Part shown: positions 6,601-36,156 of the stretch, one piece after another
How positions within the stretch are numbered: the first letter of the stretch is position 1
Layout of the letters: each line of letters starts with the position of its first letter
Assembly (NCBI GenBank): GCA_947454235.1
Contig: CANGIY010000002.1
Location: forward strand, 248,001-312,000
Direction: 5' to 3'
Source of the DNA: Chitinophagaceae bacterium
GTDB taxonomy: Bacteria > Bacteroidota > Bacteroidia > Chitinophagales > Chitinophagaceae
Length of the DNA stretch: 64,000 nucleotides
Made by a program: the position numbers and the translations under genes
Notes under the pieces: model-generated
Told to the model about the DNA's origin: nothing
Database searches by the model: none
The model's input: the letters and a program-made list of their open reading frames with translations, nothing else

Positions 6601-9600
6601 CTTGGTGAAACCGAAATTGTAAATGATGGTAATGACGAGATATTGTAGCTATTTACAGTCGGGCTTGCAGTGGTAGGGAATGCTCCGCTACCTAAAGCCA
6701 CGCTTGAAGGACAATATCCTAACTGGAAACCAGCCGAACTGTAACCTACTAATGGCGAGCCACTATTGTCCTGAGCAATTACGAAATAATAAATTGTTGT
6801 GCCAGCCGAAACAGTGTGATTGAGTAATGTATAATCAGGTTGGAAAGTGAATGGAGAAGAACTGTTTGATGCTTCAACATACTTCCAGCCATCTGTTGTA
6901 TTGTCATTGGTTGCACCCAACGCATTCGCATCACCACTACCTCGGTAGTACATCCTTGGTTTAGTACCCGATGTTACATTAATTCCCGCTGATGAAGTTA
7001 TAACAGCCGACAAAGTAGGTGCGTTTGCTATACAATAGCTTGTAGCTAAAATTGGCGTATATGACAGCACAGGAGGTGCACCTGATGACGGAGCACTGCC
7101 ACTGAATTCTTTTGCACCACGACATGGAGGAGACAAACGTGTTGTACCTGATTGGTCGGTTGTGATTGAAGGACTAGTGATCGCAATACCATTGTTATAA
7201 GCAAATGAAGAACCACTAGGACCACAAGAACCCGTTGCAAAACCAGAAGATGTAAGGTTACACTCCGAATAGCTGTAAGTCTCATTACCACCACCTATAA
7301 AGGTTTTATAAGAGGTAGCATAGGTTGAACCTGGGCAAGAGTTGAAATTGGCATCATTCACAATATTATCAGTACCCGATGCTGTCAATCCGTTTGTTGC
7401 ATAACCATTTCTGATTGTGCCTGCACCACCTGTAAAATCATCAACATAAATGAAGTTATTTGGTGTTGCACCAGCTGAAGCACCTGAATTAGTGTAGTAA
7501 ATATTGTAGTTAGGTATAAACAAAGAACTAGAAGGTGCAGTACCTGCAGTACCTGTTGTATTCCTCTGTAAACAAGCAGCGATACCTGTCCCAGAAGGGT
7601 TGGCATTCACATACAGAATGTTATCAGTTAATGTAAGTACCGATGTAGTTGCAGGAGGGAATAACAAAGCTGCTACACCGAAGTTTGTACCTGAACTAGA
7701 TAAAGCTGTACCCGGACTTCCAACTCCCAAACCACCAAAAGCAATAGTGTTATGGTACAAGTTCCAGTAGTTGTTTGCCAAACTTTGCATTCTGATACCA
7801 TAAATACTATTCGGGTTATTCGCTGCAGGAGCAGTAAAATCCGTCATCGTATTATTGTAGATATTGAAATAACCTGCTGTATCAATACTTGATGCATTCT
7901 TACTTACCAGGTTGATACCGGTTACATTTGAAGATGTGCCCGTTGCGCTACCAGTTGATAAATTATAGAATAGATTATTCGAAACAGTCGCTGAGTCTAC
8001 CCAAGTGTAATAAAGACCGGTAATCGTAGCATTGGCAGTTGAATTGGTACATGTGAAGTCATGAAAAATTGAGTTTCTCACATTCGTAATCAGTTTGTAC
8101 AAATTCTGAGTTTTATACTCATACATACCATATATTGCTGGAGAAGTGCCACCAGTTACAGTTAAGTTGTAAGCTGTATCCTGATAGAAATCGAAAGTAG
8201 AAGTTGCTGTTGTTGTGTTGTACCACAGGTAATAAGGATAAATAACACCGGAAGCATTGCTGTTGGTAAAGTCGTTTACTTTATTGCCTTGGAAAGTTCC
8301 ACCAAATGCTGTACCGGTTACTGCGCTACCTGGTGCAGTACCTGTACCACCACTACCTACAGTCGAAATACATATGCCGTAAAGACCTGTTCCTGCACCT
8401 GTTACATTCGACATTCTGTTGTAGTTGAAGAGAGAACCAGATCCATAAGTCGAAGTCTGAATCATCACTGACGGGTTAGTGCCGCAAGTGATACTATCAA
8501 ATGTGTTATAACTGATGTTTTCAGGAATACCTGTGTTCCAACCAGCAATAATACCCCAGAAACTAACAGCATTGGTACTACCAACATTGATGTTTTTAAA
8601 TGAGTTGTTCGTGATTGTAGTATAACCAGTAGCCAATGTAATCGAACGGCTGTAGATACCATAAAACGCACCTCCATTTCCTGTTTTTGTGATAGCACCG
8701 GTAGTGTAGTTGTTCGTTATATTATTCGTAGAACCCGAATAGTTCAGATTCTCAATCATGTACAAGTTTCCGGTATTATTAGGAAAACCGGACGCCGATT
8801 TGAAATTATTGAAATTTATATTTTGAGTACCACCGGTTGCTGGTGCCGCAGAAGGACCATAGTAAATATAGTTGATAGCTGAAGCTGATGCTCCACTCAT
8901 AGATAAGTCAATCGTATTATAATTGATGTTCGGAGTGAGCATGCTTGCATCGAAACTTGTGTAAATACCATTTACTGAACCGGTTGTTGTCGAAGCTGTA
9001 ATTGTATTGTAACTGATTGTTCCGGTAGCAACCGCACCTGAAATTGATGCAATACCATATGCCGCACCACCACCAGTATATGTATTCAAAGTAACAGTGT
9101 TGTTGCTAATAGACTGCGTAGTCATCAATCCATTGTTGTTGTATATACCAATTGCCTGACCTGTACCAGCGGCTGTCATATTCACATTAATGACATTATA
9201 GTTGAATGAACCGGTCGCAGAGTTGGTTGTGTTAGCATTATAAATACCTGCCCCACTTGCATTATTAGCAGAGACGCTTATGGTATCGTAATTCGCAGAC
9301 AAACTCGTTGTTGCACCACCAATATTATAAATACCAGCAGGCGTACCACTATTCAACGAACTTGCTGTGATTGTGAAATTATTGTTGTTCGATTCTTGCA
9401 CTCCGTTAATACCTGAATTGGCAACACCTGAAATAATGGTACCTGTACTGGCAATACACGTAATGTTTGCTGTGTTGTTATTGATTTTCAACGTTGTTGC
9501 ATTGGTAGTATTACCGTAGCCGGCAAGGTTGTTTGTGGTATTTATGTTTGTACCTGTTGCAGTATTATAGTTCATTGTCAACGTACCGCCCGAACTTCCT

Positions 9601-12600
9601 GTTGTACGATAGAAAGTTGTAATACATGAATTTGCTGTACCGGAGTTAGTAATTGTTACCGTATTTGATTGAAACAATACAACCCCTGTTGAATTGCTGT
9701 AAATACCACTCAGATCATTTGAACCGCTGAGGCTCATGGTGATATTGATAATATTATTTTTTGCAGTCAGGTTATTTCCTACACTTGTGGCTGAAAAGAT
9801 ACCGTTCGTTGTTACGTTGCTACCTGATGTTTCATTAATGGTAATCGTGTTATTATTAGCGGTAAGGTTTGAACCGGCTGATTCAGCGTGAATGCCATTA
9901 CAGTAGTTAGATGTTGAACCACTCTGTTCATTCAAGGTAATAGTATTCCTATTTGCTGTAAATGTTGAATTGACACCTGAACAGTAAACGCCATAAAGCG
10001 AATTAATGTTTGTTGCACCACTACTCGCATTATCTAAAGTATTGTAAGAAGCGTTAGCATTGTTCTGGAAAATCAAAGTTACACCAGCTCCCATACCTGA
10101 AGGTCCGCCGGTTGCACCCCAGTTAGTTGCGTTGTTACCGGTACCAATGGCACTACCTCCAACATCATTATTTTGGTCATATAGTGAATACGGCGTGCTT
10201 GCATTATAACCAGCCAAATAAATTGGATACTGGCAATTTGAAATTGTATTCGTGTAAAACTTGTTGTTACTGTGTAAGTCAATCGTATCAGTTATTGTTG
10301 CTGTAGTACCGTTGGTGTCTTTATGTACCGAAGCAATACCGTATGTACTGTTCGTATTTGTGCGATCAAGAGAGATAATACAATTCTTCACCTGATCATA
10401 ACGACAACCATCAGCAGGTGTTGAAGTACGCAAGTTGAAGAAAGCATAACCATACTCCATTTTAGTTGTTGCAGTAGTATTTGATCCAGATTCCTGCAAA
10501 TCAATACCGTTAATCGTAACATAGTCGGAACCCAATACAGAGAATATACAGTCATTTGAACCAGTACCTGTAGGAGCAGTAATAACAGTATGAGCACCAC
10601 CAGGGTAACCATTAATTGTAAGTGTATTAACAGCATTCAACGATGAGTTCATGAGTGCACTACCAAGTCTGTAACCACCGGCTGGTGCAGTCTCTGTCCA
10701 ACCAGAAACAGCTGCATTCAAAATAATCGGACCACCAAAGTAAATTGTATCTAAAGCGGTGATGGCATCGGCCAATGTAGCAAACGTACCACCTGTTCCA
10801 TACGTAAATGTGCCGTAAGGATAAGGAATATTAAACGTATTCGAAACTACTGAAGTGAAACCGGAAGCACTGAAAGTAATAGTGGCACCTGTAGTGTAAA
10901 CCGAAGCGGCACCAGTTAAATCAGTATACGTTGCTACCCCACCACTCGTTGCTGCTGAAGTAGTGCCACCTAATGTCCAGGTTGCGCCTGAAGCTGCCGC
11001 AGAAATTGTTGATGATGAAGTTGAAGCCAGATTCTCATACTGGTCTTTTAATGAAACAACAGGTTGAGTATTCAGGTTACCCGGATTCGTCAAAGGTGCT
11101 GTTGGTTGTGTAGTAATTGCCAAATGTGTAGCCACACCCGGACCAATGTATTGAACAACCGGATCAGCGCCATAAGTTGTCGCTATAACAGTTATGGTAT
11201 AAGTACCTGCAGTTTGTAAAAATGCTGATGCAGAAGGATCAAGTGTTATTGTACCCGCACTGATTGAATATGCAGCACCAGGAAGCGTATTTGTACCAAT
11301 TTTAATGGCAGTAATAGCTGAACGCCATGTTGCATCATCAGTAAATGTGATCGAGAAAGGATTATCGACAGTTGCTCCACTCGCCGCAGTCAGCACCGGT
11401 GAAGGTGCAGGAACGTTGAATGACGCTGATGTAACAGGAGTCAACGACCCGCTTGAGAATGTAATTGTTGCACCAGTAACATAGGAAGCTGCGGTTGCGG
11501 TCAAACCAGAATAAGTTGCAACACCTGCAACACCTGCAACACCCGTTGTACCTCCAATAGTCCATGAACCTGCTCCAACAGTCGCTGTTACAGTTGCCGT
11601 ACTAGTTGTTACATTATTGTATTGGTCAAGTATTGAAACCACCGGTTGCGTACTCAAAGGCCCACCGCCATAAACAGCGTCACCCGGGTTAGTTACCATT
11701 GCTAAATGGGTTGCAACACCCGCAGCAATAGTTTGAGAAACTGTTGCATCAGCATAACCCGTTGCCAAAACTGTAATTACAAATGTACCTGCTGTTTGCA
11801 AATAAACTGATGCAGCCGGAGTGAGTGTGATTTGACCAGCCGTCGACACAGAATATGCGGCACCAGGCAATACATTGGTTCCTACTTTAACTGTAGTAAT
11901 TGCCGAACGCCAAGTAGCATCGTCAGTGAATGTGATATTGAACGGATTATCAACTGTTGCACCAGCCGCTGCAGTCAAACTTGGCGATACTTTTAATCCA
12001 ACAATATAATCGCCTGCAAAAGCACCAGAAGTAATGCCTGAAGGCATTGAAGTGTAAGGTGAAGCTGTATTAGTTGTAGAAAGAGCAGAACCCAACCAAG
12101 AACCAGTGAAATATTTTTGCGTAGAGAAACCGGTATTGCTACCACCAATGATATCAGCTAAATTATATGTAAACGTTGGAGTGATACCTGTAAGAGTTGC
12201 TCCGCCATTCGCCAACGTCCAATAATGAGAAGTATAATTTGACGTAGTGACACCAGATGTAGCTATTTGAGGGTGAGCACCTGTAGTTGATTTTGCAACA
12301 ATGTAACCAGCAGAAGCACCAGTCAAAGCAAGTGAAACAGGTGCGTAAGTAGCATCACCAACCTCAAAAACAACAGTTGATAAACCGGAAATAGTTTTTG
12401 CAAAATTACCGTTCACATAAGAAGATGATCCGGCACCTGTAACAGTTCCGCTACCCGACATTGCAAGTGTATAAGAACTAGTATTCAGAACTCCAGATGT
12501 AAGTGTCAATGTACCCGACAATGTATCATTCTGTGAAAGCGTCACTCCCGCTGAGTTACTGATAGTGAGTGAACCGGTATTTACTGGCATATATGTGCCA

Positions 12601-15600
12601 GTAACTTGCGCCGAACTGCCATTGAAAATAAAGTTAGCGTTTGATGCAATTGTTCTTACTGTGGTTGTTACAGAACCATTAACACCGGCAGTATTTGCCG
12701 TAGCCAAAGTACCATTCAACTGCAAACCGGTTGTACCTGATGCAGCACCACCGCTCACGGTGTATGTTGAACAATCTAATGTACCACCTGAATTAACAGT
12801 CATGATTGAATATGGCGATGTATTGATAGGCAAAGCAATATTTGATTGCAACTTCACATAAGTACCTGAGTTCACTACATAAATAGGTCCCCAGCTAGGC
12901 GTTACAGTTGATGAATATGACAAGAACTGTGGTGCACCAGAAGTGCCGGAACCATTAAATACAAAACCTAAGGGTTGAGTTGTACCTGATGTCATGGTAC
13001 CGCCACCAGAAAACGACAAGTTGCCGGTAACCCCAAAATAGTCACCCGTTGTAGTACCAGTACCCCAGTTCATATAAGTTCCTGAAGTACAGTTAAAAGT
13101 GGCATTTCCATTAACCTGGAAAACTGAAACGCCACTTGCGCTACCTCCCGACTCCATATTTATAGAAGTACCTGTACTTGTAGAACTGAAACTTCCTGCG
13201 CATGTAAAAGTTACATTTCCTGAGTTTACACTTGACATCAATGACATGGCAGATGTACCACTCATAGAAAGGCAGGAAGCAGAAGTATTATTAAAATTAA
13301 CACACTGTACTCCAAAACCGGCACCTCCATTAAATGTACCGCCAGATATAGTGGCCGTACCAGTAATGTTCATAGTATCATTTATTGTACCTGTTACCGA
13401 AGCTGAACTCATTCTGAACGTACCGGCGGACATCAAAAATCCTCCTGCCAGATTCAATTTATTCACCAAAGTTGGTGTGGCTGTAGTTGAGGCACAAACA
13501 TTGAATACAGCAGTGCCACTTAATGTCATACATGGCGATGCTGCCGAATTAATGAACATTCCGTTTGTTGCTCCCCCGCCAGTATTTGCACATATCGAGT
13601 TAGTACCTGCCGATTGTGCGTAGGTTCCACCAATAATAAGGGTATTATTCGATGACGGGCAGTTGTTGGCACTTACAACCATGTGAGTAGCCGATGTTCC
13701 GGTTAATACAACATTACCTGTAATAACCAAGGAGTCTGTAGCACTGCTTGTAGCACTTGTTACATTACAAACGCGCACACTACCAGTACTGGTGTTGGTG
13801 TAGTTTCCTCCAATTGTAATTTTCGCCCTTGGTGTTGTTGCTCCCGCCGCAGCGTTTACATTCATTTGTCCAGAACTGGTCATGTTTACATTTCCACCTA
13901 TTGCAATTAATGCTGTTGGAGTTCCTGCAGTAGCTGCGGAAGAAATACCGTTCATTTGCCCGGTAGTAATACCAACATTAGTAGCTATATTTAATGTAGA
14001 TGTAGTCGTACCACCGGTAGCTGTAATCGCATTCAACGTACCTGATGCTAACGCTACTGAATCGCCAACACTCATATAAGAAGTAGCAGTACCATTTGTA
14101 CCGGAGTTCAAAGTAATAGAACCTGTACTGGTATATGTTAGACGACGACCAATCAAAAATGCAGCATTCGAAGTATTTGTTGACGATGGTTTATTGAGTG
14201 AAAATACACACGTACTTATTGAAACGTCACCTGTTGCAGAAGTTACACTGATGGTATCGTTAAAAGTACCGGAAGTAGCAGAAGCAAATCCACCATTGAA
14301 TGTTCCGGAAGTAAGTGTCATTGCTGTACCACCCGAACCGTTAATCGTTAGATAGTTATTTGAACTTCCCGCCGTTTGGTTACACATATTAAATGTACCT
14401 GTCGAAAAAGTAAATGTTGTGCCACAAATAAAACGGTTGATTGCCGATGTGCCGGTACCTGTGCCAATATTTGTGGTTGTATTACTAATCGCAACTGCAC
14501 CAGCCACATCAATGGTATCAGCAGGCGTAGTAGCTGTACTATTACCAATTGAAACAGCCACAGAACCACTTGTAGTATACGTACTCAAACAACGTAGTCT
14601 TCCCACAGGAGAAGTACCCCCTGACGCTCCATTAATTGTAAGAGTACCCAACGAAGCTGAAAACGCTCCGGTAACATCGAGCCGAGCGTAGTTATTACTA
14701 CCGCCTGATGCAACTTGAATTGCTAAAGTTCCCGATGACGTAAGACCGTAAGTTGTACCAACAGACATAACTGTTGTTGTTGTACCAGCACTGGCAGAGT
14801 TCAGCCTTACAGTAGTGGTAGTATGTGATACCGCACCTGCTACCGAAATAGTATTTGTATTTGTACCGCCCGTTGCTGCTCCACCATTAAAAGAGCCGGA
14901 AGTAAAGGTTAAAGCATTTACAGACATGACGTTTGAACCTGTTCCTGCTGAGTTTGAACCAACATTTAGGGTACCGGTACTTAATGTCAATGTAGCTGAT
15001 GTTGCAGTAAATACGTTTGTATTGTTGGTTGCTCCGCTGGCACCTATATTAAATGTACCACCTGTTATGCCAACGGTAGCACCTGCTACACTCAACGTAT
15101 CATACGCGTTTGTCGTCACTCCCGATGTTGCTGATCCAACTGTTACAGTACCGGCGCTCATAGAGTAAGTACTACTAAAAGTTAACCTGCCTACAGGGGT
15201 ACCGCCTGTTGCTTTATTCACATTAATGAACGCAGCAGTAGTCATACTAAATGCAGGAGTTACAGTTAATCTTGCATACGTTGTACCACCTGAACAGTTG
15301 TTGATATTTAAAGTACCCGTACTCGAGAATGAAGTTGTTCCCGTTACCGCCATAACAGCATTAGCCGTACCTCCGCTACTTGCATTCACGTTGAATGTAC
15401 CTGTACTTGAGATTGAAAATGTACCGGTAACATTTAATGTTGCATTGGCTGTGCCAGTGCTTACATTACAAACATTGACCGTACCCGCAGACGAAAACAA
15501 CAGATTTCCAGCAACAGCCCACGTTGAAGTGGCTGCGGAATTCATAAACGTAGTTGTACCTGTACTTGAAATTGTAAGATTGCCATAAGTGGCTGCCGGA

Positions 15601-16082
15601 ATTACATGGTTAATACTTGTACCGGCAAAATTTACAGTTGTGGTACTGGCTATCGTATTAAAGGTAGGATACCCGGTAGCAACATTGTACACCAATGAGG
15701 CGGTACCTGTCATATTAAAAGTGCCCGAAATAGCAGCATTGGCAGTTACTGTTGAAGCTGTACTCATGGAAATAGTAGGCGCTGATAATGCAGCATTTAC
15801 AGTCAATGCAACTGTCGTACCATTACCAATTGTAAGTGTACTACCCGATCCAGAAATATTCAATGTACTGGAAACAACAAAAGATGTTGCATTTTGGACT
15901 ATAAACGCATCACCTGCCGTTGTGAAATTGGACGGCGAAGTTCCTCCTGATCCCGAGGCTGCCGTTGTCCAGTTGGCTGTGTTACTCAAGTCTAATCCGG
16001 CAGTGTTCCGGGAATAGTAGGTCGTGGCAAAAACGACATTCGTAGCGAAAAGTAAGGCTAAGGTTTGGATAATTCTTCTCAT
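615..16082 (-). CDS. Giant secreted multidomain surface protein, T9SS substrate (5155 aa)
   Basis: A signal peptide (MRRIIQTLALLFATNVVFA) is followed by about 1,100 residues of Thr/Ser/Gly-rich tandem beta-type repeats, period roughly 35-40 residues, each with phrases like GTLNINGASGGT. Two copies of a domain resembling PF07550 (hemoglobin-interacting/DUF1533, motif TDDATWRSAIT) lie near residues 1370 and 1560, each followed by an Ig-like module. A long parallel beta-helix region rich in NN-[TS]-I repeats spans roughly 1760-2990. Ig/PKD and Big_2-like modules fill 3000-4500, with a nidogen-like segment around 3910-4100 (INANGYITFGSG, ALFWHDMN). The last ~75 residues are a type A T9SS sorting domain (VIPNPATEDVKISF ... 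ASGVYMVEV). It should be exported to the cell surface or medium and act as an adhesin or matrix protein; no enzyme motif was recognised. It is transcribed alone, with a terminator at 561-594 and a pentanucleotide repeat just before its ATG. Confidence 0.9.
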   Translation of the reverse strand: MRRIIQTLALLFATNVVFATTYYSRNTAGLDLSNTANWTTAASGSGGTSPSNFTTAGDAFIVQNATSFVVSSTLNISGSGSTLTIGNGTTVALTVNAALSAPTISMSTASTVTANAAISGTFNMTGTASLVYNVATGYPTFNTIASTTTVNFAGTSINHVIPAATYGNLTISSTGTTTFMNSAATSTWAVAGNLLFSSAGTVNVCNVSTGTANATLNVTGTFSISSTGTFNVNASSGGTANAVMAVTGTTSFSSTGTLNINNCSGGTTYARLTVTPAFSMTTAAFINVNKATGGTPVGRLTFSSTYSMSAGTVTVGSATSGVTTNAYDTLSVAGATVGITGGTFNIGASGATNNTNVFTATSATLTLSTGTLNVGSNSAGTGSNVMSVNALTFTSGSFNGGAATGGTNTNTISVAGAVSHTTTTVRLNSASAGTTTTVMSVGTTYGLTSSGTLAIQVASGGSNNYARLDVTGAFSASLGTLTINGASGGTSPVGRLRCLSTYTTSGSVAVSIGNSTATTPADTIDVAGAVAISNTTTNIGTGTGTSAINRFICGTTFTFSTGTFNMCNQTAGSSNNYLTINGSGGTAMTLTSGTFNGGFASATSGTFNDTISVTSATGDVSISTCVFSLNKPSSTNTSNAAFLIGRRLTYTSTGSITLNSGTNGTATSYMSVGDSVALASGTLNAITATGGTTTSTLNIATNVGITTGQMNGISSAATAGTPTALIAIGGNVNMTSSGQMNVNAAAGATTPRAKITIGGNYTNTSTGSVRVCNVTSATSSATDSLVITGNVVLTGTSATHMVVSANNCPSSNNTLIIGGTYAQSAGTNSICANTGGGATNGMFINSAASPCMTLSGTAVFNVCASTTATPTLVNKLNLAGGFLMSAGTFRMSSASVTGTINDTMNITGTATISGGTFNGGAGFGVQCVNFNNTSASCLSMSGTSAMSLMSSVNSGNVTFTCAGSFSSTSTGTSINMESGGSASGVSVFQVNGNATFNCTSGTYMNWGTGTTTGDYFGVTGNLSFSGGGTMTSGTTQPLGFVFNGSGTSGAPQFLSYSSTVTPSWGPIYVVNSGTYVKLQSNIALPINTSPYSIMTVNSGGTLDCSTYTVSGGAASGTTGLQLNGTLATANTAGVNGSVTTTVRTIASNANFIFNGSSAQVTGTYMPVNTGSLTISNSAGVTLSQNDTLSGTLTLTSGVLNTSSYTLAMSGSGTVTGAGSSSYVNGNFAKTISGLSTVVFEVGDATYAPVSLALTGASAGYIVAKSTTGAHPQIATSGVTTSNYTSHYWTLANGGATLTGITPTFTYNLADIIGGSNTGFSTQKYFTGSWLGSALSTTNTASPYTSMPSGITSGAFAGDYIVGLKVSPSLTAAAGATVDNPFNITFTDDATWRSAITTVKVGTNVLPGAAYSVSTAGQITLTPAASVYLQTAGTFVITVLATGYADATVSQTIAAGVATHLAMVTNPGDAVYGGGPLSTQPVVSILDQYNNVTTSTATVTATVGAGSWTIGGTTGVAGVAGVATYSGLTATAASYVTGATITFSSGSLTPVTSASFNVPAPSPVLTAASGATVDNPFSITFTDDATWRSAITAIKIGTNTLPGAAYSISAGTITLDPSASAFLQTAGTYTITVIATTYGADPVVQYIGPGVATHLAITTQPTAPLTNPGNLNTQPVVSLKDQYENLASTSSSTISAAASGATWTLGGTTSAATSGGVATYTDLTGAASVYTTGATITFSASGFTSVVSNTFNIPYPYGTFTYGTGGTFATLADAITALDTIYFGGPIILNAAVSGWTETAPAGGYRLGSALMNSSLNAVNTLTINGYPGGAHTVITAPTGTGSNDCIFSVLGSDYVTINGIDLQESGSNTTATTKMEYGYAFFNLRTSTPADGCRYDQVKNCIISLDRTNTNSTYGIASVHKDTNGTTATITDTIDLHSNNKFYTNTISNCQYPIYLAGYNASTPYSLYDQNNDVGGSAIGTGNNATNWGATGGPSGMGAGVTLIFQNNANASYNTLDNASSGATNINSLYGVYCSGVNSTFTANRNTITLNEQSGSTSNYCNGIHAESAGSNLTANNNTITINETSGSNVTTNGIFSATSVGNNLTAKNNIINITMSLSGSNDLSGIYSNSTGVVLFQSNTVTITNSGTANSCITTFYRTTGSSGGTLTMNYNTATGTNINTTNNLAGYGNTTNATTLKINNNTANITCIASTGTIISGVANSGINGVQESNNNNFTITASSLNSGTPAGIYNIGGATTSLSANYDTISVSANNASGAGIYNANTTNSATGSFNYNVINVNMTAAGTGQAIGIYNNNGLMTTQSISNNTVTLNTYTGGGAAYGIASISGAVATGTISYNTITASTTTGSVNGIYTSFDASMLTPNINYNTIDLSMSGASASAINYIYYGPSAAPATGGTQNINFNNFKSASGFPNNTGNLYMIENLNYSGSTNNITNNYTTGAITKTGNGGAFYGIYSRSITLATGYTTITNNSFKNINVGSTNAVSFWGIIAGWNTGIPENISYNTFDSITCGTNPSVMIQTSTYGSGSLFNYNRMSNVTGAGTGLYGICISTVGSGGTGTAPGSAVTGTAFGGTFQGNKVNDFTNSNASGVIYPYYLWYNTTTATSTFDFYQDTAYNLTVTGGTSPAIYGMYEYKTQNLYKLITNVRNSIFHDFTCTNSTANATITGLYYTWVDSATVSNNLFYNLSTGSATGTSSNVTGINLVSKNASSIDTAGYFNIYNNTMTDFTAPAANNPNSIYGIRMQSLANNYWNLYHNTIAFGGLGVGSPGTALSSSGTNFGVAALLFPPATTSVLTLTDNILYVNANPSGTGIAACLQRNTTGTAGTAPSSSLFIPNYNIYYTNSGASAGATPNNFIYVDDFTGGAGTIRNGYATNGLTASGTDNIVNDANFNSCPGSTYATSYKTFIGGGNETYSYSECNLTSSGFATGSCGPSGSSFAYNNGIAITSPSITTDQSGTTRLSPPCRGAKEFSGSAPSSGAPPVLSYTPILATSYCIANAPTLSAVITSSAGINVTSGTKPRMYYRGSGDANALGATNDNTTDGWKYVEASNSSSPFTFQPDYTLLNHTVSAGTTIYYFVIAQDNSGSPLVGYSSAGFQLGYCPSSVALGSGAFPTTASPTVNSYNISSLPSFTISVSPSNYYGSSNPATLTLSPSNSDLGLQWQMSYVATSGTTPYASISGATTNGYSATMPDITSSPALASPGTSNNVSFQALLTCNLSVVSTVTATSVTDYTPQILSTTGGSRCGTGAVTLSATGSTGSNYYWYANATGGSALAAGASYSPTVSATTTFYVSDSFGTYGAQTIGKADILSSGTNNLYSITTGSAGDGLFFTANKDIKINSVNIYPYLSGLAFTIAIWDASTSSLVTTYSGTTTVSNTSTPGTAQTVPVNFSLPPGNYKIGFSSLASGNFMWMNTFFTSYPYTVVPNTISITGPQVSNYYEIFYNWSVISPVMSSPRVAVTATVYSVPDAGAVSATPASICSGSTTVLSESGSVVPPYIGATMSSYSWTGPSGYSSSATATSVGSVTVTPVSGYYSLTVTYPGTGCTSIPVSTYVTVNTATTPTITGTFSACVAASQTLSVTPTGGTWSSSNTSVATVDATTGVVTGVHAGTATISYLSPCGLTATQSFTVNPTPTAITGPSTICVTAGYPTYSVTVDGSSTGSWSASPLSVAVIGSSSGTLTSMSVGTANISYTTTSGCYLTTTLNVNNTGPSAITGGSSICSGGVTTLADATTGGVWSSADTTIATVNASTGDVTGVSAGTVTISYITGCTPHATTTVTVNGATVALSNSGPACTGSTLNMTATPSTSLTSYSWNGPNSYSSSSSLTPSIGSVTSNAAGTYTFTAVAGGCTTYTTMNVVVGVTPSVTATASPSAICSGGTSYLTLPTLSPSAYSVYSIPYSVPSFTPTGTLTSASTFTSTYDDGYYAVSLPSGFSFNFYGTSYSTVYINANGYITFGSGVSSGSATPLTLPSATAPSRMVALFWHDMNLSAGSITYGSTGTIPNRKFIISYNAVPDATDVNSGQIILYEGSNVIDMMVSHTNTGTKTCGVQNSGGTQALTPPGQNNVAYSVTGVGYQGWRFATPSYSYSWSPATALSSTAVSNPTSTGLSSTQVYSVSVVDAYSSCTSGASSNTTISVSPVPSISMTSSATSMCVGSAMTLTASSSGGVGTPTYTWSGPGITTTTGSTPTPAAFYPSVVSTTIGAYSVSVSYAASGCTTATASSTTDTIAPQPVVTVTPSATTLCSGDTLTLTETTTTGGVGSVLYTWSGPGITTTTGSSNISPAFTPTVSSGSYSVSVAYSGTGCTTATAATATVDMNGRPGITLGGSPSVCSGATSASISYSGAVNSPTNYSIDWSSAAITAGFANVTGATLSVGSIGLTVPGAVAAGSYAGTITVSNGSCTSTSYSFSLNVINHATAAITASTTPCMGYDGLVTITGTTGATIGYMVDSATLLTTTLTGGTYTVTLSAMSTGHYVTLVNVDNGTCVDYIDTVILISPLQMSWTGITDTDWNNAANWSCGFVPGSTDDVIIPSGTTYAPYIAASGSGSTKGITIASGVTLHIGSGGVLSVAGDLSNNGTIGDLGTLTMNGTSAQTISGFGVVNNFDLNNTAGATVSSGSLMTINKVLSVTNGVLHTGDSVVLASTSAGTARVASITASGANISGNVKTMQYVEGGYRRYRFWSHAFSNSIPLMQIQNYIDVTGDSGSVHGFVTTGSNAPSAFRYDPTRANSARASDPGWMPFTDCYGTADSNRLQKDQGIRLFIRGSKGQGLGYASYTPDSVNISMWGQLNVGPHTVTLRKGAAVSGQEYNMVGNPYASPVDIGTVIYNAKMNGNLVGSAFYVWNTSMGAAGQFQAITIANTPYYLQAYNAFQVRAAHNGDSLNFTESNKSSSATTNLFKANPDYISMVVYDANYHPWDIFNIKFDDAASDKEEDVDATKPSGTDFKFYSLSSDNQKLAIDVRDYKAGKVIPLGITSAYTQDFIIKVVGQEMAPDASLFLHDKLLEKYTLVAPGAEYRFSITADEKTQGEARFELVTGKNSGTSSKGVHVSVIPNPATEDVKISFACTQQEHVTVKVMDVTGVCVFEKDLGATANGALAIPLDKYASGVYMVEVTAGKEKVVQRLIKE

Positions 16083-30624: not shown

Positions 30625-31503
30625 TTATTCAACTATAAATTTTACAAATCCGGTGCTATTTTCTCCGCACAATTTAGCAATGTGCATGCCGGGTGTGAGA
30701 TTTTGATTCTCTAATATGTAGTTATTGAAACCAGTTTTGGTATCAATGTTTGTAACTGTCTCTTCCCTACCCAGCAGGTCGGTAACCACCAGTTTGTATT
30801 GTCCGGGGTCAATAATATTAAAATTAAAGCGCACTCTATCAGAAGTAGGTGAACCAATAACAGTGACAGGAATAGTTTCTTTCACCGCATCGTTAATACC
30901 CTCACCCCAAGGTGTCGTATAAACATTATCAATAGTCCATGTTCCGCCAACGCTGGTTGAAGACACGAATTTGAAAGCAACGTAAAGTGGAGTTGTTTTA
31001 AAAGCAGTCAAATCAATCCAGTGTGTTACCCATACAGCCGAATCACCTGAATTATCAATAACCGGTGCCGAAGAAGCTGTTCTGTCATCCCATTCAATAC
31101 CTATTGAATCAGGATTGCCATTGCGAACAAAATTGCTGGAAACCAACACACGCAATCTATTGGCAGCATGTTGATATTTCGCATCAAACCTAACGTAAAC
31201 AGTACCGGGATATCCAACCAAATTAAGTTGAGGCGTAAATAACCACGCAGTATCTAAATAGTTCCTTCCATCATGAAAGCTGGAAACCTCCATGCCTGTT
31301 GTTCCGAAACGCCCCTCGTTGGGTGCGCAATACCAACCCAAAGAACCTATTGGCTCAATGTTGTTGTATTCCGACCAGTTGGTTGGGTATGCGTAGCCTA
31401 TTGTAGTGCATGTTGACTCAAATTGCTCAGTCAATGTAGTCACTTGAGCTGATGCACTACCGCCAACCACTACAGCAAGTAAAAATGTAAAAGCAAATTT
31501 CAT
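30625..31503 (-). CDS. Secreted choice-of-anchor J-like protein with T9SS sorting domain (292 aa)
   Basis: After a signal peptide (MKFAFTFLLAVVVGGSASAQ) comes a ~170-residue beta-sandwich resembling the cleaved-adhesin/choice-of-anchor J family: LTEQFESTCTTIGYAYP at the start, AWLFTPQLNLVGYPGTVYV in the middle and GGTWTIDNVYTTPWG at the end. The last ~80 residues are a T9SS type A-like domain (VIGSPTSDRVRFNFNI ... LTPGMHIAKL). In that domain the usual PNP is replaced by a less typical motif. The product should be surface-exposed or released. It is divergent from the sigma factor gene, sharing a 167-bp intergenic region, with a terminator just downstream. Confidence 0.85.
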   Translation of the reverse strand: MKFAFTFLLAVVVGGSASAQVTTLTEQFESTCTTIGYAYPTNWSEYNNIEPIGSLGWYCAPNEGRFGTTGMEVSSFHDGRNYLDTAWLFTPQLNLVGYPGTVYVRFDAKYQHAANRLRVLVSSNFVRNGNPDSIGIEWDDRTASSAPVIDNSGDSAVWVTHWIDLTAFKTTPLYVAFKFVSSTSVGGTWTIDNVYTTPWGEGINDAVKETIPVTVIGSPTSDRVRFNFNIIDPGQYKLVVTDLLGREETVTNIDTKTGFNNYILENQNLTPGMHIAKLCGENSTGFVKFIVE

Positions 31504-31567: not shown

Positions 31568-31670
31568 TAACATCCCACATCACTATTTGACGAGTACAAA
31601 ACACAAAATGTTAGAAAAGAAAAAAAATTTTTTTTGACTCTAACATTTTGAACTCACTGTGCGTCAATAG

Positions 31671-32315
31671 TTGAGAGGTTTACTCTACTTTGTTAAAGGT
31701 AATCATTTTTTTGAACAATTGACAGAATCGTTGGACATAAGAAAGTTCATATCTTACTCAGATAGCAACGCATCAAAAGATGGTGAGTTGCATCTATTGA
31801 TTAAGGACTGCCTTGCCAACTCACGCACCGCTCAAAAGAAACTGTACGAGAAATATTCACCCGCTGCATACGGCACCATTAAGCGCTATATGTTCAATGA
31901 CGAGAACGCAGCAATGGAAATTCTCAACGATTCGTTTTACAAGGTTTTTACAAAACTGGGGCAGTACACTTTCCAGGGCGCATTTGAAGGTTGGATTAGG
32001 AGAATTGTCGTAAACACCATTACCGACTACCTGAGGAAGAACATTAAAGATGCACCACACATTAAAGAAGTGCAGCCCGATGACGGTTTTGTGGAAAATG
32101 ACACTGTAGGCAACCTCAACTATAAAGAATTGATGCAGTTGGTACAGTCATTACCCGAAGGGCAATTAGCTGTATTCAACTTATTCGTGTTTGAAAATTA
32201 TTCGCATAAAGAAATAGGAACCTTACTCAATATCACGGAAAATAACAGCAGATGGTATCTCAACGATGCCAGAAGGAGACTTAAAGAAAAAATAAACAGC
32301 ATGTCCAAACACTAA
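31671..32315 (+). CDS. ECF-type RNA polymerase sigma factor (up to 214 aa)
   Basis: Region 2 is recognisable from LIKDCLANSRTAQKKLYEKY through the -10 recognition helix (AMEILNDSFYKVFTKL ... FEGWIRRIVVNTITDYLRK). Region 4 runs from LMQLVQSLPEGQLAVFNLFV through the helix-turn-helix HKEIGTLLNITENNSRWYLN. It directs RNA polymerase to a set of promoters, presumably under control of the next gene, which starts 8 bp downstream. The start is uncertain: an in-frame stop directly precedes TTG 31671, and no in-frame ATG exists before region 2. The candidates are TTG at 31671, 31719 or 31731, or another rare codon. Confidence 0.9.
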   Translation: MRGLLYFVKGNHFFEQLTESLDIRKFISYSDSNASKDGELHLLIKDCLANSRTAQKKLYEKYSPAAYGTIKRYMFNDENAAMEILNDSFYKVFTKLGQYTFQGAFEGWIRRIVVNTITDYLRKNIKDAPHIKEVQPDDGFVENDTVGNLNYKELMQLVQSLPEGQLAVFNLFVFENYSHKEIGTLLNITENNSRWYLNDARRRLKEKINSMSKH

Positions 32316-32323
32316 GAAAAACA

Positions 32324-35300
32324 ATGGGAGACAATTTAAAACATATTGATAACGTATTCAGGGAAGGGCTGGGTGACTACACCGAGCTTCCACCTCCTGC
32401 CGTATGGGAGGCCCTGGAAAAAAGGCTTGACGACGACAAGCGAAAGGGCGGGTTCTTGTTCCGCAAAAGCTGGGTGCTCCTGCTTTTACTTGCATTTATT
32501 ACTACCACAGGCGGGGTAACTTACTTCCGCATGCACAATAGCGGTAATGCAAGCCTTGCAAACAACACCAACGAAAATACAACTACCAAAGGCATTGCTG
32601 AAAATACGGACCATCAGAATGCAACACCTGAAACTTCTACTTCAACAGTTCAACAACCTGTTGCTCAAAACAAAACATCAGTAAAACAACCTGCAAATAC
32701 CGGCGCCTCCCATAGCCGCGTTCACCATGTTGCTACTTCGCATAACGCTATCAAACATGCTGCAAATACCCACTCAGAAACTGTAAAAGCAACTGAGCCA
32801 AACTCCCAAAATTACAACGCCTCTGCTGTTGAAGAAAAAACTGTAACTCCTATCGCTGCATCTTCTGAAACCCCTACCAATTACAAACAACCTGAATTGC
32901 TTTCTGACCCTACCGATGGCGAAACAGTTGTTGCTACAAAGAAAAATCAAGAGAAAGCAACAAAACACCCAATTCAGACAAATAGATATGCAATTGTAGA
33001 ACGTTCAGGAGCTAACAAACCTGCTGCACACCGTTCAAGAACCAATGGTTCAAAACATGTAAAGGCTACAAAAACTGCAATTGCTAAAGCCAACAATATC
33101 AATTTCAACCCTAACATTCCGGTTGAAGAAAGAAAGAAAAACGCAACCCAATCGGCAGCCAACAATACCAATGTTGCTTCAACTAAAAAAACTGAAACAC
33201 CTAAGCCTACTACCAATAAAACTAGTGGAACACGAACGGCGACAACGGTATTAGCATCTAACAGTACGAGTGCATCAGGTAATAAAAAACCTGTTGCAGC
33301 AACCGGCAAACCGGAAACTACTGCAAAAGCAACTGTAGTTGATACAAAAACTACTACTACAGAACCAGCGCAGGCAATTGCTTCTAGCTCAACAAACAAT
33401 ACTTCTAGTCCGGTAAACGCAGCCGGTGCGCCAAAAAGTACAAGGCACCCACGCAATAGAAAACCGGTAATAGCAACTGCTTCAACTAGTACGACAACAT
33501 CAGCATCATCTAGCGTAGAAAATTCAAACAACCCTACACAAATTGGTGCAACTAAAACTATAGGGCAGCAAGAAGCTCCTAATGTTGCTACTGCGCCAAC
33601 ACATGCTAAATCTGGTGCTAAACACACTGGCGTCGCATCGACAAACGGAGGCACAAAAACCACTGTTGCTGCAATTGCAAATTCTGTAGCTACCAATAAC
33701 CAAAAAGGCACTACTACCCACCAATCAACCGCTGCAAAAGCCACTAACACAACCTCTACTGTTGGGAAAGGTGATGCGATTGCTTCAACAAAACATGTGG
33801 GTATTAAAACAAATACTACATCTAACAAAAGTGGAATTTCAACTAAAACAGTTGCGGCTACTTCTAATTCTGTTGCAGCGAGCAATAAAGTAGAAAATAC
33901 TTCAAACGCCATTTCTAAAACAAAAGCTACAAATACCCCTACCAACCGCGCCCTTGCGTTAAACAGTGCGCCTTCAAAAAACAATGCTTCGGCTCCAAAA
34001 AAAGCAGAAAGTACACAATCAAAAGAAGCAAAAGAAGTGGCTACAAATCAGCCAAAATCTGCTAAAAGCGATACAAAAATTGCTGTAGCTGCTTTCAAAG
34101 GCAACACAACCAATACAATCAAAAAGGCTTCCCTTTCTTCTGTAACAAAATCAACTGTTGCCACAGAAACAGGAACACCTAAAACAGCTTCAAGCATTAA
34201 AAAGCCATCACAACAAAGCGCAAAAACTATTGACAAAAATAAGGGTATCGCAGCTACTGCGGCTTCGCCAAAACCAGTAAAAGCAACTGGCATTTCAAGC
34301 CGTCGCAGAAAACACAATCAGCCAGCCGCTGGTTCAAAAGTAGCAGAACAAACTGCTACCGATGTTGCCATCAATGCACAAAAAAATAAACCTTCTAAAA
34401 CAACTAACAAACAAACTTCAGGAACAGGAAATGCTTCAACAGCACCTACTACCAACACCAATGTATTTGCTAGCAAAACAGGAGCATCAAGCACTCCAAT
34501 AGCTACAACAGCAACAAATCCGGTAACACCAAACGCAAGTACCACTGCTAAAGCTGACCCATTGAAACCAATGGAGACTTTCAAAAAAATAGATACAGTC
34601 GCTAAATCTGCTACTGCACAACAAACTCCTGCTGTTGCAACAACCGACTCAAGTAAGAAGAAACCTAAATTCCACCTCAACCTTGGCAATAACAATACAG
34701 TGGGCGTGAAGGTTGGTTTTGAAAGTGGCTTTAGCGCAACTGCTGCTAACAAAATGGTGTTCTCTCCGTTTATCGAACATTTATTCAATGATAAGTTCTC
34801 GGTTATGTTCCAGCCTGCAATAAAATCTTCGCGGTTTGGCACACAACACCTTTCCGGTAGTCAAAGTTTCTATGGCACCGATAAAGGCGTTATTGATACA
34901 TCTAATGTTTACATTTTGTTGGTTCCAAACTCCAATGGCGGCATGGATACTTACAATCGTGTGAACTACATCTGTACTCAAAGCCACGACAGTATCTCAA
35001 AAACTTACGCTATTGGCGGTCAATACTGGGAGTATGAATTCCCGATTATGGTGAAATACAAAGTGCACAAAAATCTCTCAATTCTGGGCGGTGTAAGTAT
35101 CAACTATAGTAAATACCTCGCTATTCAGGAATTGACTTATAACTCAGCATGGACACCAGAAACGAAGAGTACAATGGTGGTATTCCAAAAAGGTGCTGCA
35201 ATACCTCCAATGCCGGTTGCCTGGAATAAATTGTTCAACTACGGCAATAATCCTATTACTGGCTACCAAGGTCCTTTGTATCGCAACAAAGAAGGAGCTT

Positions 35301-35476
35301 CTATGAGGTATGGTATTACTTTAGGTGCCAGCTACGAATACAAAAGCAAGTATCTGTTTGACATATCAATGCAGCAGTCTTTCACCGACAAAAACGTTTT
35401 GGGTGGTGTAGACGTTAATAAGCCTTTCAGCAGCACCTATTTCAGGGTATCGCTGGGGTACAAATTGTTCCAGTAA
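32324..35476 (+). CDS. Putative dual-membrane-spanning anti-sigma factor with C-terminal outer-membrane barrel (1050 aa)
   Basis: Three parts are visible. Residues 1-48 are a charged, probably cytosolic segment (HIDNVFREGLGDYTELPPPA, VWEALEKRLDDDKRK). Residues ~49-67 are a single membrane helix (WVLLLLLAFITTTGG). Residues ~70-782 are a low-complexity linker of Thr, Ala, Asn, Lys and Ser. Residues ~783-1050 form a beta-barrel-like domain (FHLNLGNNNTVGVKVGFESG ... YFRVSLGYKLFQ) of the outer-membrane beta-barrel type. There is no cleavable signal peptide. The parsimonious reading is one chain anchored in the inner membrane, crossing the periplasm and ending in the outer membrane, with its N-terminus able to bind the ECF sigma factor encoded 8 bp upstream. 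This matches the concept of dual membrane-spanning anti-sigma factors described in Bacteroides. An alternative is a barrel protein with an unusual uncleaved signal anchor. Confidence 0.75.
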   Translation: MGDNLKHIDNVFREGLGDYTELPPPAVWEALEKRLDDDKRKGGFLFRKSWVLLLLLAFITTTGGVTYFRMHNSGNASLANNTNENTTTKGIAENTDHQNATPETSTSTVQQPVAQNKTSVKQPANTGASHSRVHHVATSHNAIKHAANTHSETVKATEPNSQNYNASAVEEKTVTPIAASSETPTNYKQPELLSDPTDGETVVATKKNQEKATKHPIQTNRYAIVERSGANKPAAHRSRTNGSKHVKATKTAIAKANNINFNPNIPVEERKKNATQSAANNTNVASTKKTETPKPTTNKTSGTRTATTVLASNSTSASGNKKPVAATGKPETTAKATVVDTKTTTTEPAQAIASSSTNNTSSPVNAAGAPKSTRHPRNRKPVIATASTSTTTSASSSVENSNNPTQIGATKTIGQQEAPNVATAPTHAKSGAKHTGVASTNGGTKTTVAAIANSVATNNQKGTTTHQSTAAKATNTTSTVGKGDAIASTKHVGIKTNTTSNKSGISTKTVAATSNSVAASNKVENTSNAISKTKATNTPTNRALALNSAPSKNNASAPKKAESTQSKEAKEVATNQPKSAKSDTKIAVAAFKGNTTNTIKKASLSSVTKSTVATETGTPKTASSIKKPSQQSAKTIDKNKGIAATAASPKPVKATGISSRRRKHNQPAAGSKVAEQTATDVAINAQKNKPSKTTNKQTSGTGNASTAPTTNTNVFASKTGASSTPIATTATNPVTPNASTTAKADPLKPMETFKKIDTVAKSATAQQTPAVATTDSSKKKPKFHLNLGNNNTVGVKVGFESGFSATAANKMVFSPFIEHLFNDKFSVMFQPAIKSSRFGTQHLSGSQSFYGTDKGVIDTSNVYILLVPNSNGGMDTYNRVNYICTQSHDSISKTYAIGGQYWEYEFPIMVKYKVHKNLSILGGVSINYSKYLAIQELTYNSAWTPETKSTMVVFQKGAAIPPMPVAWNKLFNYGNNPITGYQGPLYRNKEGASMRYGITLGASYEYKSKYLFDISMQQSFTDKNVLGGVDVNKPFSSTYFRVSLGYKLFQ

Positions 35477-35481
35477 AAACT

Positions 35482-36156
35482 TTAGAAAACATAAAGAAAA
35501 CGGGCGGTGACCACATTATTGTGTTCATCGCCTATTTCGTTAAAAGAACCGTAAGGAATGCGTGTTATTGGTCTAATCGTAGTAAATGAATACTGATACC
35601 GCATGTTGATAAACAAGTTCATGTACAGTTTTTTAGTTACCCCCACGAACCAGTCGACATCTACCTTTTCAAATCGGTTCCGATCTTCGTCAATATATAC
35701 CGGGTAATCAGCAGCCATTGATTCGTATGTTCTTACAAGATATGCCGCCGAAAGCCCTGCTTCTAGGTCATACTTATCCAATACTATATAATGAAAAGCC
35801 ACAGGTACTTCCACGTAATTGAGCCTGAGCAGGTAAGTAAGAAAGTAAGTACCCACAGTTACCGAATTAGCTGTGGTAACTGCATTACTCCCCTTTTGGG
35901 TATATAGCAACTCCATACTCGCACCTATTTTATCAGAGAAATGAGCATAGCTAAAAAGCCCAGCTTGCAACCCTAATTTGTGGTAACCCGCATAGCTATC
36001 GCCATCAACCTGAGTGAAATTAGCACCAATTGCAAGCCCGCCGTCAAAGGTCTTGCGATCTCTGTTCCCAATTTGGTACATGTTTGTTTGCGCACACACC
36101 AATCCCGTCGATAGTGCACAGCCAATTGCAAAAAATGATGTCTTGAAAAATCTCAC
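35482..36156 (-). CDS. Outer-membrane beta-barrel (porin-family) protein (224 aa)
   Basis: A signal peptide (MRFFKTSFFAIGCALSTGLVCAQ) is followed by alternating aromatic/hydrophobic strands typical of the small PorT/OmpA-like barrels of Bacteroidota: GGLAIGANFTQVDGD, KLGLQAGLFSYAHF, GASMELLYTQKGS, LSAAYLVRTYES, and a C-terminal VVTARFLYVF ending in Phe. It probably sits in the outer membrane; no substrate can be read. It converges on the sigma/anti-sigma operon with only 5 bp between the stops, so the two transcripts may overlap. Whether it is functionally tied to that operon is unknown. Confidence 0.8.
   Translation of the reverse strand: MRFFKTSFFAIGCALSTGLVCAQTNMYQIGNRDRKTFDGGLAIGANFTQVDGDSYAGYHKLGLQAGLFSYAHFSDKIGASMELLYTQKGSNAVTTANSVTVGTYFLTYLLRLNYVEVPVAFHYIVLDKYDLEAGLSAAYLVRTYESMAADYPVYIDEDRNRFEKVDVDWFVGVTKKLYMNLFINMRYQYSFTTIRPITRIPYGSFNEIGDEHNNVVTARFLYVF

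Follow-up and report, generated by a model that had tools for sequence, protein, structure and literature searches.

The window analyzed here, a stretch of 64,000 nucleotides from a Chitinophagaceae bacterium (GenBank assembly GCA_947454235.1, contig CANGIY010000002.1, positions 248,001 to 312,000 of the forward strand), belongs to a genome of 4.17 Mb in 47 contigs (G000 in our notation, in which G, C and L numbers are handles for genomes, contigs and loci) and contains two adjoining genes that encode an extracytoplasmic function (ECF) sigma factor and a predicted dual-membrane anti-sigma factor. The sigma factor (31719..32315, plus strand; 198 aa), recognized with Pfam and NCBIfam profiles, matches Sigma70_r2 (E=3.2e-9) and Sigma70_r4_2 (E=1.4e-10) in the Pfam scan, with both regions 2 and 4 present, and carries the motif ENNSRWYLNDAR in its region 4.2. 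The first-pass annotation had begun this gene at 31671, which is merely the start of the longest open reading frame (ORF). We place the likely start at the TTG codon at 31719, because homologues begin at this position and the predicted promoter described below ends at 31667; its -10 part (31662-31667) puts 31671 at or before the start of the transcript. After a gap of 8 bp from the end of the sigma ORF at 32315 follows the gene of the predicted dual-membrane (Dma-type) anti-sigma factor (32324..35476, plus strand; 1050 aa), an assignment based on the ORF, its homologues and AlphaFold2 models. The full-length protein recovered zero Pfam or NCBIfam matches at E<=1, and its organization emerges instead from its parts, namely a short N-terminal domain (N-domain), a single membrane helix, a long linker and a C-terminal domain (C-domain).

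The N-domain (residues 1-45; 32324..32458, plus strand) is predicted to be cytoplasmic and to form two short helices (8-16 and 25-37). Its residues are mostly polar, and alignments reveal a motif conserved across relatives, IDxxFRxxLxxYxExPPxxxW. No recognizable class I anti-sigma domain (ASDI, more than 50 residues) was detected by sequence comparison, the N-domain comprising about 45 residues with no Pfam match at E<=1. The membrane helix (residues ~47-69; 32462..32530, plus strand) is apparent from its hydrophobic sequence and corresponds to a helix at 45-75 in the model. Basic residues mark the cytoplasmic side of a membrane helix (the positive-inside rule), and the N-terminal flank is the one richer in them, which fits a cytoplasmic N-terminus. 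A cleaved N-terminal signal peptide, one of the findings that the first-pass annotation had named as speaking against its proposal, is disfavored by the 45 mostly polar residues and conserved motif that precede the helix, as judged without a signal-peptide program.

The linker (residues ~70-780; 32531..34663, plus strand) is rich in Thr, Ala, Ser, Lys and Asn and carries a net positive charge; residues 73-780 include 127 T, 109 A, 80 S, 78 K and 68 N, with 92 K+R against 37 D+E and not a single Cys. No tandem repeats were found within it, and its length and composition suggest that it is disordered. Its great length had been presented as an anomaly, on the ground that it would reach about 250 nm. 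However, this figure is a contour length (255 nm for 708 residues), and with the standard polymer-scaling constants for a relaxed chain the same segment would span only ~14-26 nm end to end, which is of the order of a periplasm ~20-30 nm wide. Moreover, when the linker is taken as the protein length less 72 and 265 residues (good to about 10 residues, as some starts are uncertain), it measures 159-267 residues in 13 and 556-684 residues in 7 of the 20 complete homologues, and 713 in the window. Given the periplasmic size of the relaxed coil and this roughly four-fold spread, the linker is best understood as a slack tether rather than a ruler or spring; the idea of a ruler was rejected on account of the same spread (159-684).

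The C-domain (residues ~781-1050; 34664..35473, plus strand) is predicted to be an outer-membrane beta-barrel, in line with the structure check that had been suggested for residues ~780-1050. An AlphaFold2 model, computed from an alignment of 25 sequences (the window and 24 of 25 homologous loci, L089 being excluded for an internal stop), is a nearly all-strand barrel with a mean pLDDT of 87.0 and a pTM of 0.68. Foldseek searches with this model recovered the outer-membrane barrels FapF, NalP, OmpA and Ail, with E-values down to 1.8e-6. Pfam profiles likewise recognize the domain in the homologues: at E<=0.1, OMP_b-brl matches 19 and OMP_b-brl_2 matches 18 of the 25 aligned C-domains, the best OMP_b-brl match having an E-value of 4.4e-7. 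A sequence search of the PDB with the barrel profile yielded nothing up to E=1. From the Foldseek matches, the outer-membrane barrel class of the modelled domain is clear, but the exact barrel is not.

Among the 39 genomes compared, the C-domain has a match at E<=0.01 in 11, namely the source genome, 8 of the 10 others of the same genus, G015 and G021. The N-domain alone has a match at E<=0.1 in 25 of the 39 (the source genome included), among them all 10 of the same genus, with the match in G001 being only at the level of a paralogue (35% identity). Scanning the named genomes with the C-domain alignment recovered 25 loci. In all 20 of these that could be read as far as the N-domain, an ECF sigma gene lies directly upstream, and the pairing noted at the outset is thus borne out; of the remaining five, four run into the end of their contig and L089 has the internal stop. 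Because relatives retain both terminal domains behind a sigma gene, the 1050-aa ORF is no chance ORF. The N-domain profile has a wider reach. Of the 195 family genomes, 171 contain a hit to it at E<=0.01, and in a phylum-wide sample of 247 genomes 58 have one at E<=0.001, with 56 of the 58 (the source genome included) belonging to the same class or to a narrower rank. Shorter proteins are frequent among these hits, and barrels were checked in some of them only: of 10 full-length proteins scanned with Pfam, 4 scored above an OMP_b-brl cut-off, 2 more matched below it and 4, including a paralogue from the source genome, gave no barrel match.

These observations bear on two alternative interpretations of the protein. 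The first denies the N-domain any anti-sigma function and has the two genes merely co-transcribed. No solved relative of the N-domain was found, and its model (residues 1-90, 20 sequences) is weak, with a pLDDT of 60. However, the strict pairing with a sigma gene (20/20 readable loci) and the conservation of the N-domain motif, which certain relatives repeat two or three times in tandem ahead of the helix, argue for a sigma-binding role, as does the similarity to CnrY, a class II anti-sigma factor that likewise has two helices and is of comparable size (PMC7406223). We therefore regard mere co-transcription as very improbable. The second alternative holds that the linker is cut soon after export, leaving an anti-sigma stub in the inner membrane and a separate barrel, with no chain spanning both membranes at steady state. 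The very long and basic linker, with lengths of 159 to 684 residues in the complete homologues, behaves as though no exact length were needed for continuity, as this would have it. Yet in 20/20 complete homologues the N-domain and barrel share one reading frame, a constraint that cleavage into two products would make unnecessary, and for both Reo of Phocaeicola vulgatus and Dma of Bacteroides thetaiotaomicron the reports have one chain running through the envelope, mostly on the basis of prediction (PMC13114119, PMC13088901). Early cleavage thus appears unlikely, and the dual-membrane plan of N-domain, one helix, ~710-residue linker and C-terminal barrel is supported by sequence and prediction alike.

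The intergenic region upstream of the sigma gene contains a predicted promoter of the sigma/anti-sigma operon (31640..31667, plus strand), comprising CTAACATTTT as the -35-type and CGTCAA as the -10-type element, which is itself an exact match in the genome search and has the same spacing in 20 of 21 loci. Across the window and 20 further loci, the promoter-like motif CTAAC[A/G]TT-N14-CGTC[A/T] or a close form of it stands upstream of the sigma gene in all but one (20 of 21) under a rule that requires TAAC and, 21 bases further along, CGTC or CGCC; L082 alone lacks it. The CGCC form occurs in 7 of the 20, which are precisely those whose sigma factor has QNNCRW in region 4, a coincidence that may reflect shared descent. 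A mirrored copy of the motif (31587..31614, minus strand), identified by comparison of the loci and a genome search, faces a divergent gene for a predicted secreted protein (30625..31503, minus strand; 292 aa), a putative target according to the motif and a choice-of-anchor J protein according to NCBIfam. The mirrored copy is present on the other strand in 13 of the 21 loci (a further match in L090, at a different spacing, was left uncounted), and in these the divergent gene begins 176-323 nt from the sigma gene. By eye, its N-terminus is of the choice-of-anchor J type in 11 of the 13, those in L081 and L091 being too short to tell. NCBIfam confirms this assignment for the window, L153, L080 and L212 (corresponding to the loci window, L075, L080 and L082), as well as for L155 and L172. 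At the 8 loci lacking the mirrored copy no such divergent gene was seen at that place by eye.

Within the window, loose matches to the motif are uninformative, since a scan allowing 3 mismatches found 8 against 7.79 expected. Genome-wide scans were made with a tight pattern (CTAACRTTT-N13-CGTCWA) and a looser one (CTAACRTT-N14-CGTCW), with the reversed pattern as control, over 11 genomes of the genus. In the source genome the tight pattern has 4 exact matches against 0 for its reverse. Two of these lie in the intergenic region between the sigma and divergent genes, another lies 136-191 nt (the start being uncertain) before the gene of a reprolysin-like metallopeptidase of 775 aa with a clear sorting tail of the type IX secretion system (T9SS), and the last lies 157 nt before that of a Big_2 repeat protein with an equally clear T9SS tail. 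Over the 11 genomes the tight pattern has 13 matches against 0 reversed, and the looser pattern has 55 against 9. Six other spacings gave 12 matches altogether and their reversed forms gave 42, the reversed pattern therefore being the stricter control. Downstream of the 55 sites are 31 ORFs with a hydrophobic N-terminus, 9 sigma operons and 8 copies of a second sigma gene (192 aa), with nothing behind the other 7. Targets of this kind were defined as ORFs of 150 aa or more that encode a hydrophobic N-terminus and lie no further than 320 nt from the site; such an ORF lies behind 473 of 9687 random positions (4.9%) in the window and 25 named loci. Thirty of the 31 targets, the last of which runs off its contig, were scanned for the T9SS sorting domain (TIGR04183), and 21 pass the cut-off of 23 bits. 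Two others fall just under it, the divergent protein of the window (20.9 bits) and L155 (21.0). Several of the seven targets without the tail show a lipoprotein-like start by eye, and one of them, L170, is probably not a gene.

The distribution of the motif also points to the sigma factor that might read it. Where a sigma gene encodes xNN[SC]RW in region 4 and is followed by an N-domain gene, the motif is found upstream in 22 of 26 cases; for sigma genes of the GTSK type the count is 0 of 17. Set apart from this comparison were 5 sigma factors of other forms, 1 of which has the motif, and a further 7 that have no recognized N-domain gene. The four xNN[SC]RW misses are L199, L078, L082 and L011, with L078 having a form that passes the looser TAAC...CGTC/CGCC rule. 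Similarly, G015 and G021, which have the barrel, and G056, which has only the sigma factor and N-domain, together contain 7 motif matches, each before a sigma operon or an ORF of the secreted type, against 2 reversed; 15 other genomes with no C-domain match, of which 11 belong to the family and 4 to the order, contain 2, neither with an ORF behind it, against 14 reversed. A paralogous sigma/anti-sigma pair of the source genome (L043, G000:C28) and its relatives instead have upstream, by eye, a CCCAAC..GTC form at like spacing, a pattern met by 5 loci of the GTSK type. Further pairs of this kind, with long linkers and their own CCCAAC..GTC motif, occur at L046, L050, L051 and L052; of the four paralogous proteins scanned with Pfam, L050 has a recognizable barrel and L043, L046 and L051 gave none.

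Alternatively, the motif might belong to another regulator, for instance the 192-aa sigma factor, with the linked sigma gene being merely one of its targets. This second ECF sigma gene is conserved; in 8 of the 11 genomes of the genus the motif is found at 153-189 nt upstream of it, and its counterpart in the source genome is preceded at 222 nt by a variant, CTAACTATTT with CGTCTTA (the loci concerned are L062, on contig C5 of the source genome, L144, L145, L167, L168, L178, L150, L182 and L154). However, the motif tracks both the presence and the region-4 type of the linked sigma factor across genera, and the paralogous pairs with GTSK-type sigma factors bear the different CCCAAC..GTC motif at like spacing. 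There is thus good but indirect evidence that the motif belongs to the linked sigma factor, and its assignment to a different regulator seems quite improbable.

The architecture inferred for the window protein is of a known kind, well supported here by structure prediction and conservation. Dma1 and Dma2 of Bacteroides thetaiotaomicron, with their sigma factors Das1 and Das2, are described as having the same N-terminal anti-sigma domain, helix, long disordered tether and barrel beside an adjacent ECF sigma gene (PMC13088901); the likeness already drawn in the first-pass annotation holds for this four-part plan and the neighboring sigma gene, compared by description and not by sequence. The Dma family is described as confined to Bacteroidota (PMC13088901), the phylum to which the host of the window also belongs. 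In Phocaeicola vulgatus and Bacteroides fragilis, the anti-sigma factor Reo, encoded downstream of the sigma factor EcfO, is predicted to reach from the cytoplasm to the surface with a C-terminal barrel (PMC9308784, PMC13114119), and in P. vulgatus it is said to traverse all five compartments (PMC13114119, PMC9308784). On genetic grounds, proteins of this design are reported to function as anti-sigma factors (PMC13088901, PMC9308784). The outputs set the systems apart, at least by description: those of Dma involve NigD, polysaccharide utilization locus (PUL) genes and vesicles (PMC13088901) and those of EcfO-Reo nigD genes and an altered O-antigen length (PMC9308784, PMC13114119), whereas the predicted targets in the window genome and its relatives are mostly T9SS cargo. 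CnrY, which with CnrH offers the short two-helix sigma-binding part noted above, resembles the N-domain in size and helix number only, and no outer-membrane part is described for it there (PMC7406223). PorXY-SigP of Porphyromonas gingivalis also ties an ECF sigma factor to the T9SS, with SigP (193 aa) being near the 192-aa sigma factor by length alone (PMC4800418, PMC7712824). Unlike the cargo regulon predicted here, it is described as being activated by a two-component system and as controlling T9SS components (PMC4800418, PMC7712824). Our searches of the open-licence PMC literature brought up no paper linking a dual-membrane anti-sigma factor to the T9SS. What is new here is the promoter-like motif and the predicted regulon, for which several sequence-based controls are given above.

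Taken together, these observations suggest that the pair is probably an autoregulated switch, made up of an ECF sigma factor and an anti-sigma factor of the Dma/Reo type, for a small set of secreted proteins that are mostly T9SS cargo. Several points weigh against this reading, beside the weak N-domain model already mentioned. The barrel of the window itself matches neither OMP_b-brl nor OMP_b-brl_2 at E<=0.1, with no Pfam hit even at E<=1, and the TM-scores on the query of its PDB matches are low (0.16-0.38 among the 50 matches listed). The choice of the linked over the 192-aa sigma factor as reader of the motif depends on co-variation, and the locus counts are not independent, as the loci include many that are closely related. 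Within the source genome only the tight form of the motif stands out, since the looser pattern gives 4 matches against 3 reversed and a scan allowing one mismatch finds 5 of each; across the genus, 7 of the 55 sites have no gene behind them. With regard to the cargo, the T9SS sorting domain of the divergent window protein is sub-threshold (20.9 bits against a cut-off of 23) and is absent from 7 of the 30 scanned targets (L165, L170, L177, L179, L180, L183 and L185). Moreover, single T9SS-tailed targets prove little because such tails are common in the source genome (at least 150).

In the proposed mechanism, the N-domain would keep the sigma factor bound at the inner membrane, with the linker, to judge from its composition and variable length, crossing the periplasm as a slack tether to the barrel predicted in the outer membrane. 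The barrel would report a change there, either its own failed assembly or the binding of something, upon which the anti-sigma factor would be inactivated and the sigma factor freed. Inactivation would most likely involve proteolysis rather than pulling, because a slack chain would scarcely transmit tension from the outer to the inner membrane. The freed sigma factor would then recognize the conserved CTAAC[A/G]TT-N14-CGTC[A/T] and act on its own operon, the small set of secreted genes encoding mostly T9SS cargo and, in relatives, the second sigma gene. As to the signal, a specific external ligand might be what the barrel detects, instead of outer-membrane assembly. A long inter-strand stretch (residues 181-216 of the C-domain model) could potentially serve such a purpose, and glycan sensing is proposed for Dma2 (PMC13088901). 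However, ecfO-reo is given as the pair most induced by the toxins BcpT and Bd-A (PMC13114119), in keeping with the induction of this pair by envelope-active toxins (PMC13114119, PMC9308784), and BamA is reported to be inhibited by bacteroidetocin A (PMC9308784), both of which fit assembly stress. These reports support placing the window protein in the same class as Reo and lead us to favor assembly stress; a specific ligand seems rather unlikely, with failed barrel assembly being at least as good a candidate for the signal. The fuller proposal, that a one-chain sensor reaching from cytoplasm to outer membrane governs surface output, with failure or occupancy of its barrel freeing the sigma factor to act on itself, T9SS cargo and the second sigma gene of relatives, is offered tentatively, as something short of an even chance.

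Directly behind the anti-sigma gene lies a convergent gene for a small outer-membrane barrel protein (35482-36156, minus strand; OMP_b-brl_2 in Pfam, E=5.8e-16), and a 5155-aa protein encoded at 615-16082 of the window (minus strand) has a T9SS sorting domain, with the match at G000:C2:248618-248848. The N-domain also occurs in other architectures. L199 (G156:C6, L199:407-2470:-) has three and L200 (G067:C14, L200:375-2387:-) two tandem copies of it before the membrane helix; both have a C-domain that is similar by eye and a sigma gene of the NN- or SN-CRW type upstream, and their tandem N-domains are possibly multivalent sigma traps. L201 (363 aa) and L202 (301 aa) have two N-domain-like copies each behind sigma genes of the GTSK type. 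In L203 and L204 an N-domain-like start and a membrane helix are joined to a long protein with a C-terminus that by eye is of the VWA type, and an initial view of them as fusions of the N-domain to a TonB receptor was dropped on this account.

An earlier survey reports a class I anti-sigma gene nearby for only 6% of Bacteroidetes ECF sigma factors and leaves the control of the rest open (PMC7406223). Given that the N-domain has matches in 171 of the 195 family genomes, anti-sigma factors of this type may account for a large part of ECF control in Chitinophagaceae. The paralogous pairs with a different motif provide a natural set for the study of sigma specificity, and the predicted promoter and target list make the proposed link between the state of the outer membrane and T9SS cargo directly testable. 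If the link is real, the outer membrane would feed back directly on how the type IX secretome is transcribed.

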